Positions 2 to 33,355 of a stretch of 35,434 nucleotides of DNA are shown here, in pieces. A model generated the notes under the pieces. It was not told where the DNA came from. It saw only the letters and a list, made by a program, of their open reading frames with translations, and did no database searches. The DNA lies in the NCBI GenBank assembly GCA_017406405.1, contig JAFQYO010000011.1, positions 1 through 35,434 of the forward strand. The letters run 5' to 3'. The position numbers were made by a program, and so were the translations under genes. Position 1 is the first letter of the stretch. Every line of letters begins with the position of its first letter. Source of the DNA: Candidatus Saccharimonadota bacterium. GTDB lineage: Bacteria > Patescibacteriota > Saccharimonadia > Saccharimonadales > Saccharimonadaceae.

Positions 2-274
2 TTTGTCAATGGAGACTTAAGCTACGGCATGAGTAACTCCGGCTCCACCCGCGACTACGGCCTTCTCAGCGCTCCATTATCGTATGTGAGGAGTGGCGTC
101 TACTACTGGTACTCTACGGGGCTTAGCAACAGAGGTTCGAACGGCTACTATTGGTCGCTTCGTTCCTACAATACCACGAGCTCCAACAACCTGCTCTTCT
201 ACTCATCGAACTTAAGCCCTCAGTACTACGGCAGTCGCGGCTACGGGTTTGCGGTGCGTTGCGTATCGCAGTAG
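2..274 (+). CDS. FISUMP-like hypervariable protein, C-terminal part (partial)
   Basis: The frame is open from the left edge to a TAG, so this is the 3' end of a longer gene whose start lies outside the window. The last 75 residues are rich in Tyr, Ser, Asn and Gly, contain a WYSTG..YYWSL core and end in GFAVRCVSQ. That pattern fits the FISUMP (Fib_succ_major) family, a C-type-lectin-like fold that is often a surface protein in CPR bacteria. Two homologous cassettes lie at 32877-33313. Among the three copies, replacements fall on codons of the form NNC or NNT (AAC, TAC, AGC, GAC, GGC, GTC, CTC), while the flanking framework is nearly identical. This is what a diversity-generating retroelement leaves at its variable repeat. 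Role in surface binding is inferred from the family; the retroelement itself is not visible here. Confidence 0.75.
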   Translation, partial: FVNGDLSYGMSNSGSTRDYGLLSAPLSYVRSGVYYWYSTGLSNRGSNGYYWSLRSYNTTSSNNLLFYSSNLSPQYYGSRGYGFAVRCVSQ

Positions 275-377
275 AGAGATCCGGTTCCGAGTTCCCGCTT
301 GTTCCCTCCTCCCCAGATTTTCTAGGAACAGGCTAGCATTCCTCCTATGCTTGACAAGAATAAAATAAATGAGTACC

Positions 378-529: not shown

Positions 530-1048
530 ATGAATAACCAAGCTTTTATCGACGGACAAAATCTAAAAGTTAGCACCATGAACGCGAAACCGTCGTGGAC
601 GGTTGATCTGAAACGATTCAGGGTGTTTTTATCAGAAAAATATAAAGTTAATGAAGCATACTACTTCATCGGAGCATACGATCCTAAAAACCAAGATTTG
701 TATGATGCGCTTCAAAAATATGGCTACATCGTAGTATTCCGCGAACACGCAGAAAGTTCCCTCAGCCATAAGAAAGGCAATGTAGATACCGATATTGTCT
801 TTGCGGTTATGAAAAAATTGGTTGAGCGTGAGAAATTCGACAAGGTCATATTAGTTTCCGGCGACGGCGACTATTGGCGAATGGTAGATTATCTCATCAA
901 GAAAGAAAAGTTTGAGAAGCTACTAGTTCCGAATAAGTACACCCTATCTTCACTTTACCGCTTGAGAACGCCAGACACTTATCGTTCGTACCTCGATGAC
1001 CCCGCGATGAAGAAGAAGCTTGCTTTAAAGGAACAGAAGAAAAAATAA
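530..1048 (+). CDS. NYN domain (PIN-like) ribonuclease, LabA/DUF88 type
   Basis: The 172-residue protein is a single NYN domain, a PIN-fold metal-dependent RNase. Visible acidic sites are the FIDGQN motif (D8), GNVDTDI (D86, D88) and SGDGDYW (D112, D114), which together form the expected metal-binding pocket. The C-terminus is a lysine-rich tail. Proteins of this family act in RNA turnover or processing, and the specific substrate cannot be read from sequence. The gene is a single unit with its own extended -10 promoter and appears leaderless. Its codons are more AT-rich than those of dus downstream, which hints at a separate origin. Its stop codon overlaps the U-tract of a candidate small RNA on the opposite strand. 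Confidence 0.85.
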   Translation: MNNQAFIDGQNLKVSTMNAKPSWTVDLKRFRVFLSEKYKVNEAYYFIGAYDPKNQDLYDALQKYGYIVVFREHAESSLSHKKGNVDTDIVFAVMKKLVEREKFDKVILVSGDGDYWRMVDYLIKKEKFEKLLVPNKYTLSSLYRLRTPDTYRSYLDDPAMKKKLALKEQKKK

Positions 1049-1105
1049 AAAAAGCAGGTTCGCCTTAGGTATCTCTCCGTTCGGTACATCCCTGCGTCGG
1101 AATAT
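1047..1105 (-). ncRNA. Candidate ~58-nt small RNA with its own promoter and terminator
   Basis: On the minus strand a near-consensus promoter (see 1112-1141) predicts a start near 1105. About 45 nt on, GCAGG (1095-1091) can pair with CCTGC (1058-1054), followed at once by seven T residues (1053-1047), as in an intrinsic terminator. The enclosed 32 nt contain CCGAACGG and CCTAAGG elements. No convincing reading frame is present and I do not recognise the family; it does not contain the SRP RNA core. It runs tail-to-tail into the NYN gene and could affect that mRNA's 3' end. Confidence 0.45.
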
Positions 1106-1111
1106 GCTTAC

Positions 1112-1141
1112 ATTATAGCACGAAATTATATAAAATGTCAA
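1112..1141 (-). promoter_or_regulatory. Strong sigma70-type promoter on the minus strand
   Basis: Read on the minus strand: TTGACA (1141-1136), an 18-nt spacer ending in TGC, then TATAAT (1117-1112). No minus-strand gene follows it, only the NYN gene in the opposite orientation, which is why a small RNA is proposed. Confidence 0.55.
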
Positions 1142-32876: not shown

Positions 32877-33104
32877 TCCTCCCGCGACTTCGGCCTCCTT
32901 AGCGCCCCATTATCGTATGTGAGGAGTGGCAACTACCGCTGGAACTCTACGGAGCTTAACAGCAGAGGTTCGAGCGGCGTCTATTGGTCGCTTCGTTCCA
33001 GCAGTACTACGTACTCCGACTACCTGAGCTTCACCTCATCAGGCTTGCGCCCTCAGTACAACAGCAATCGCGGAAACGGGTTTGCGGTGCGTTGCGTATC
33101 GCTT
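32877..33104 (+). repeat. Hypervariable FISUMP C-terminal cassette, copy B
   Basis: A 228-nt unit translating to a FISUMP C-terminus ending in GFAVRCVSLS. It begins just after the tsf stop in the same frame, with no start codon or ribosome-binding site that would fit. Relative to copy A (50-274) and copy C, differences are mainly the first two bases of NNC/NNT codons. It is one half of a tandem pair. Confidence 0.75.
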
Positions 33105-33313
33105 TCCTCCCGCGACTACGGCCTCCTTAGCGCTCCATTATCGTATGTGAGGAGTGGCACTTACTGGAGCTCTACGGAGCTCAGCAGCAGAGGTTCATAC
33201 GGCTACTATTGGTCGCTTCGTTCCTACAATACTACGTACTCCTACAGCCTGTACTTCTACTCATCGTACTTGAGCCGTCAGTACTACGACTATCGCGGAT
33301 ACGGGTTTGCGGT
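33105..33313 (+). repeat. Hypervariable FISUMP C-terminal cassette, copy C (truncated)
   Basis: Second tandem unit, 209 nt, in frame with copy B. One codon is missing before the first Trp of the variable part. Homology stops at GFAV, so the final RCVS end seen in A and B is lost. The reading frame then runs into a terminator and the rplF promoter, so the C-terminus is not authentic. Confidence 0.72.
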
Positions 33314-33328
33314 ACTAAGCCTATTCAG

Positions 33329-33355
33329 AAATCCCCACCTCGCTAGGGATTTTTC
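33329..33355 (+). terminator. Terminator after the cassettes, probable end of rpsB-tsf mRNA
   Basis: AAATCCC (33329-33335) pairs with GGGATTT (33346-33352), followed by T residues. It is the first terminator after tsf, so the cassettes should be in the 3' part of that transcript. Confidence 0.65.

Follow-up and report, generated by a model that had tools for sequence, protein, structure and literature searches.

At the left edge of the stretch of DNA analyzed here (the window, the whole 35,434 nucleotides of C8:1-35434 from a Candidatus Saccharibacteria genome of 697,629 bases in 20 contigs, 97% complete), the C-terminal end of a FISUMP-domain frame closely resembles two further segments, at 32877 and 33105, the three sharing 83-87% pairwise identity. 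An earlier note took the differences for adenine mutagenesis by a diversity-generating retroelement (DGR). The locus thus raises the question of what writes these variants and, given that 30 matches, on contigs C4, C8, C14 and C17, were recovered when the cassette was searched for throughout the genome, what so many copies are for.

The first part of the question has a nearly certain answer, namely, a DGR, established by its parts and by its signature. The earlier note had counted about 21 codons varying among forms derivable from AAC or AAT and proposed a genome search for a template with these codons at the variable sites; such a template was found on contig C4, and it carries exactly 21 AAC or AAT codons. 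Against this template, the window copy (44-255) is changed at 19 of 56 A positions and at none of the 117 others (Fisher p 4e-11), the 32877 copy at 20/56 A and 3/117 non-A positions (Fisher p 9e-9), and the 33105 copy at 20/54 A and 6/116 non-A positions (Fisher p 3e-7), whereas elsewhere in the genome C4:119-330 and the C14:97368 copy show 20/56 and 16/56 A changes, respectively, each with 0/117 non-A changes. In the main class of copies (22 copies), the change rate per template base is 0.38 for A, 0.06 for C, 0.05 for G and 0.02 for T. Change confined to A to this extent, far beyond chance, is the DGR signature, and the adenine signature claimed for the left-edge frame holds. Ordinary divergence of paralogues, or an assembly artifact, with no retroelement at all, is extremely improbable: several contigs do end inside these cassette/FISUMP repeats, making some joins ambiguous, including the assembly of the target gene, but three copies are free of non-A changes, A stands at every variable site of the template, a DGR-type reverse transcriptase (RT) is present, and the cassettes lie inside contigs between single-copy genes and recur in other genomes. 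The template begins at TATGTGAGG and is without the initial ~35-40 nt that the other copies have. Upstream of it, at C4:~560-760, there is a second, gutted template-like unit, in which the leader and the 3' flank (GTGCGTTGCGTATCGCAGTAGAGAGG) are those of the template and the variable part is absent.

The remaining components are encoded elsewhere in the genome, as the attribution to a DGR had implied. Among PDB entries, the RT is closest to 8ub7, a solved DGR RT (E 9e-23), and the second-ranking entry follows at E 3.5e-6. Its motif is IGNLSSQ; the form [IVL]GxxxSQ is typical of DGR RTs, and QGxxxSP, the motif that the note had expected beside the template, marks other RTs. The expectation of an RT outside the window was therefore borne out, but neither the motif nor the linkage was: the RT is on C14 and the template on C4, both unlinked from the window, and no template was detected in the C14 surroundings of the RT. 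In the related genome G031, target, template and, on the opposite strand, RT lie in that order within ~2 kb, so the RT has become unlinked here and in another relative, G022. The ORF directly upstream of the RT is not named by Pfam, NCBIfam or PHROGs models. A relative of its product from locus L123 was modelled (mean pLDDT 70) as an N-terminal alpha/beta part followed by a C-terminal four-helix bundle, and residues 132-252 of this relative match the Avd structures 8ub7_B and 4dwl (both Z 14.0, rmsd 2.1-2.3); scores equal to or above those of the Avd structures were also obtained with 2gsc and with 2rld, an entry annotated to the S23 family, so that the support is at the level of the fold. We read the accessory protein, on this predicted structure, as Avd-like with an extra domain. 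The N-terminal alpha/beta domain, of ~130 residues, occurs in this protein and its relatives in L123-L125 and is absent from BPP-1 Avd. A GTDB scan with the RT yielded five loci, two of which are distant RTs in Roseburia and Oceanobacillus; the named relatives that share this RT belong to Candidatus Saccharibacteria, and one of these comes from goat gut. Viral contigs contain no relative of the RT, nor do phage records contain one of the cassette, so that a phage origin is not suggested.

Table 1. Features of the window and of the dispersed DGR components (C8 positions are those of the window)
Feature	Position	Strand	Remarks
Window	C8:1-35434		
FISUMP-domain frame, C-terminal end	2..274	+	open at 5' side (contig start), stop at 272-274; PF09603 E 8e-4, below gathering score
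5' constant cassette edge	48..82	+	CCCGCGACT...; absent from template repeat; from alignment of 30 copies
Variable region homologous to template repeat	83..255	+	19/56 A vs 0/117 non-A
3' flank, homing-site-like	256..316	+	common to template repeat and C4 target copy; absent from short cassettes
Orphan VR cassette 1	32877..33104	+	edge CCCGCG at 32881; 20/56 A, 3/117 non-A; no upstream domain
Orphan VR cassette 2	33105..33314	+	edge CCCGCG at 33109; head to tail with cassette 1; 20/54 A, 6/116 non-A
Terminator-like hairpin with T run	33329..33354	+	after cassettes, before rplF; AAATCCC..GGGATTTTT, from reading the sequence
Template repeat	C4:~945-1137		AAC or AAT at all 21 variable codons
DGR-type reverse transcriptase	C14:38072-39190		sole RT gene found; motifs IGNLSSQ and YVDD
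Avd-like accessory protein	C14:37277-38071 (L032:17277-18071)		264-aa ORF directly upstream of RT

The target gene itself likely spans a break between contigs. Contig C9 ends inside a 971-aa frame with an N-terminal hydrophobic stretch and the beginning of a FISUMP domain, and its final 115 nt recur without a difference at the start of C4, in the C16:1 piece and at the end of C8. Because C4:1 carries a C-terminus, with the template ~600 bp downstream in the same order as in G031, and because an inverted repeat (10 bp, 8-nt loop) follows its variable region (VR) ~10 nt past the end of the template homology, where the template has an inverted repeat of 4 bp at most, C9 and C4 together likely make up the gene. 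For efficient homing, BPP-1 needs a hairpin at this place, behind the target VR (PMC3240598). The gene body precedes neither the C16:1 piece nor C8:105032-105155, so both are the starts of long cassettes, and it is probably a long cassette, more likely than the target gene, whose 3' end forms the window copy at 2-274, as far as the sequence goes; this copy has no hairpin, and its identity with the C4 copy ends within the first arm of the C4 hairpin. The likeness of the target domain to the FISUMP families (PF09603/TIGR02145) is weak and below the curated cut-offs: the window and C4 copies, which span only the C-terminal part of the domain, give partial PF09603 matches of 20.1 and 24.6 bits, respectively, vs a cut-off of 33.9, and the C4 copy scores 31 with TIGR02145 (NCBIfam) vs a cut-off of 41.65. 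In DGRs, the variable residues characteristically sit in a C-type-lectin fold; the domain here has no sequence match in the PDB, and its AlphaFold model reaches a pLDDT of only 30. A separate, secreted-looking protein of 1119 aa with FISUMP matches (L087:3642-7001, that is, C14:73642-77001) lies outside the DGR copies.

The ~30 copies in the genome are mostly not genes. Twenty-six of them are promoterless orphan cassettes of ~210 nt, located amid housekeeping genes in seven intergenic stretches, among them the tsf/rplF, lysS/LDH-like gene, obgE/uvrB and pyrG/argS gaps (gene names from reading the proteins), and none has a FISUMP domain upstream. The earlier note had the positions of the frame and of its copies right, but the pair at 32877-33314, lacking any upstream domain, are not FISUMP genes; together, these two cassettes fill the tsf-rplF gap, the first showing a sharp boundary 10 nt after the tsf stop codon, with identity to the target gene beginning at 32881. 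Across the orphans, identity to the target gene is 0.26 at positions -40 to -21, 0.28 at -20 to -6 and 0.57 at -5 to -1, and then 0.98 from CCCGCG onward. In 25 of the 26, CCCGCG is the common start, the remaining one reaching ~15 nt further 5'; pyrimidine-rich bases precede this edge, and the 3' end fades over ~15 nt past GGGTTTGCGG. This anatomy shows that the cassettes are copied with fixed ends.

The majority of the orphans are A-specific, and seven carry many other differences, but all 26, the seven strongly diverged ones included, have open frames with zero stops. In the diverged class, differences in framework codons fall at 94 third vs 48 first and 35 second positions and produce no stop (P ~4e-6 under random change), although both these differences and the open frames may predate copying. 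The short cassettes of the main class, most of which lack the 3' flank, have 1-14 non-A changes each, vs zero in the window, C4:119 and C14:97368 copies, which possess the complete 3' flank. Open frames, the lack of non-A changes in these full-flank copies, and the coincidence that two cassettes, those following lysS and tsf, continue in the frame of the stop codon before them would fit cassettes that are expressed in their own right or that each act as a live DGR target, as small proteins or extensions of upstream genes. We consider this improbable, however, because a start codon or signal sequence occurs at no fixed place, the arrays occur on both strands and do not always follow a gene, and the short cassettes combine a missing 3' flank with non-A changes.

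The relationships among the copies bear on whether the cassettes are used. In a weighted test on full sequences, three pairs of cassettes share tracts, with scores of 41, 28 and 20 vs a shuffled maximum of 17; one of these links cassette 2 (33105) to C14:26860 through a common 5' tract (28.4 vs a shuffled maximum of 16.9). All three tracts are in the 5' half, the 3' halves being independent, and non-A divergence of the main class from the template falls from 0.092 through 0.042 to 0.027 in the 5' to 3' direction (first third vs the rest, p 1e-7). Judged from these sequences, both patterns would fit 3'-anchored homing, either in the cassettes or in a target gene that supplied successive copies. 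When only the variable codons were put through a run-length test, no excess emerged (longest shared run of 5; shuffled 95% = 6), so widespread recent shuffling among cassettes is unsupported. Certain spacers, of 16 nt (at three places) and ~61 nt, turn up repeatedly in separate arrays (C8:51396-51453 and C14:26806-26860), and since the cassettes on either side of them differ, the contents have been replaced in place. No significant tract is common to any cassette and the C4 target copy in the shared-tract test on this one genome, and transfer into the expressed gene is therefore not seen.

This last result sits well with a serious rival explanation, that the DGR is real and the orphans are its dead by-products, cDNA or DNA copies that were inserted at pyrimidine-rich neutral gaps and tolerated. 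The orphans have neither promoter nor start, are exclusively intergenic and occur in both orientations, all as expected of inert copies; the absence of stops from all 26, the constancy of the edges as opposed to the interior, and the replacement of contents while spacers are kept are harder to explain in this way.

Among 100 genomes of the genus, FISUMP-like matches are present in 94 and an RT match in 59. By match count, cassette libraries exist in G022 (57), G011 (28), G008 (29) and G071 (87, a number that an inert origin hardly predicts in a reduced genome of 0.8 Mb), and only 2 to 5 matches are found in G001, G112, G017, G031, G034 and G027; many relatives have a DGR and no library. In G112, which is among the two genomes nearest by rpsB-tsf (80%), the tsf-rplF gap is empty, so that the array at this place in the window is lineage-specific. 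Where libraries exist in G022, G071 and G008, the cassette architecture is the same and the sequences are their own: the 5' edge lies at the corresponding place, 'CC' followed by an Arg codon (CCCGCG here, CCAGAG in G022 and G008, CCCGTC in G071), and in G071 edge positions 0-24 are 98-100% constant over 62 copies, vs 57% in the interior. Copies in G022 and G071 are A-specific relative to their own templates (for example, 24/52 vs 0/131 and 21/57 vs 2/129), and both genomes also have a second, diverged class of cassettes. The patchy distribution and the few cassettes with stops in G071 and G008 speak for by-products; weighing all this, we think that explanation rather doubtful, if far from negligible.

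Several further arrangements were observed in these relatives. In G071 (L128-L139, L146 and L147; for example, C25:535-956 and C16:43560-43981), 12 pairs of cassettes are tail to tail and none head to head, with 8-17 nt between them, and most of the junctions are palindromic, as in CTCTCCGC..GCGGAGAG, with arms of 7-13 bp; these palindromes resemble the hairpin needed by DGR targets but may merely reflect two like ends meeting. One locus of G022 (C7:16872-26742, L101) holds ~25 cassettes in 10 kb, in both orientations, where tail-to-tail neighbors tend to pair a fresh with a diverged cassette. In G056 and G276, the FISUMP matches, about twenty in number, belong to long frames (mostly >500 aa) and not to cassettes, an alternative store of many variants.

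The scenario that we marginally favor as a whole is one in which a scattered DGR rewrites a FISUMP target and the cassettes form a library of exchangeable variants. The RT and Avd-like protein on C14 and the template on C4 form a complete system, which would diversify the FISUMP domain at the C-terminus of a secreted protein through mutagenic retrohoming directed at adenines; from its fixed 5' point to the end of the domain, the variable segment (~210 nt) has been copied many times into intergenic gaps; and the promoterless cassettes would constitute a standing library of pre-diversified putative binding sites, which recombination or homing could exchange with the expressed gene, the variants having been written by the retroelement. 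Both the mode of copying out and the role of the cassettes as donors are inferred, the role from edges that are conserved, frames that are open, the structure of the arrays and the replacement of contents, and for the donor function taken alone the case is evenly poised. Against the library stand the lack of a tract shared with the C4 copy, the missing 3' flank of most short cassettes, which homing normally needs, and the many DGR-bearing relatives that have no library. The stronger version, a two-stage system in which the DGR writes variants, the cell archives them as silent cassettes and recombination returns them to the surface protein, amounting to a heritable memory, is a little less likely than not. 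DGRs are usually thought to overwrite the VR and lose the old version; if the cassettes are archives, reduced, probably host-dependent bacteria would both invent and keep binding sites, for example, for host recognition. Even as by-products, the cassettes would show the variable segments of DGRs to spread in defined units, a point of relevance to the integration of DGR cDNA, and would record past templates and targets.

Compared with known systems, the elements are familiar and their arrangement is less so. Borrelia vls and Neisseria pil each combine an expressed gene with promoterless arrays of partial copies that have constant edges and a variable interior, and the 26 orphans are alike in layout; there is no homology, however, and here the variants are written by adenine-specific reverse transcription, with donor use only inferred. 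With BPP-1-type DGRs, the system shares an RT related to 8ub7, an Avd-like partner, a template repeat, a C-terminal VR with adenine-specific changes and an inverted repeat after the target VR that is absent from the template, but differs in the unlinking of the RT from template and target, in the additional N-terminal domain of the Avd-like protein, and in the ~26 sharply bounded orphan VR cassettes in intergenic arrays. The DGR of Treponema denticola, with remote targets and an occasional truncated copy (PMC4891356), likewise serves several scattered VRs from one template, but its copies are mainly genes, whereas here they are mostly promoterless segments with one common 5' edge, set in arrays. 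DGRs are known in Patescibacteria, including a clade 2 restricted to this group (PMC8144416), and the open literature, mostly without subscription papers, yielded no description of DGRs with silent cassettes or with orphan or intergenic variable repeats. The system is thus of a known kind, a DGR, and its more unusual part is that most of the copies are orphan cassettes rather than genes.
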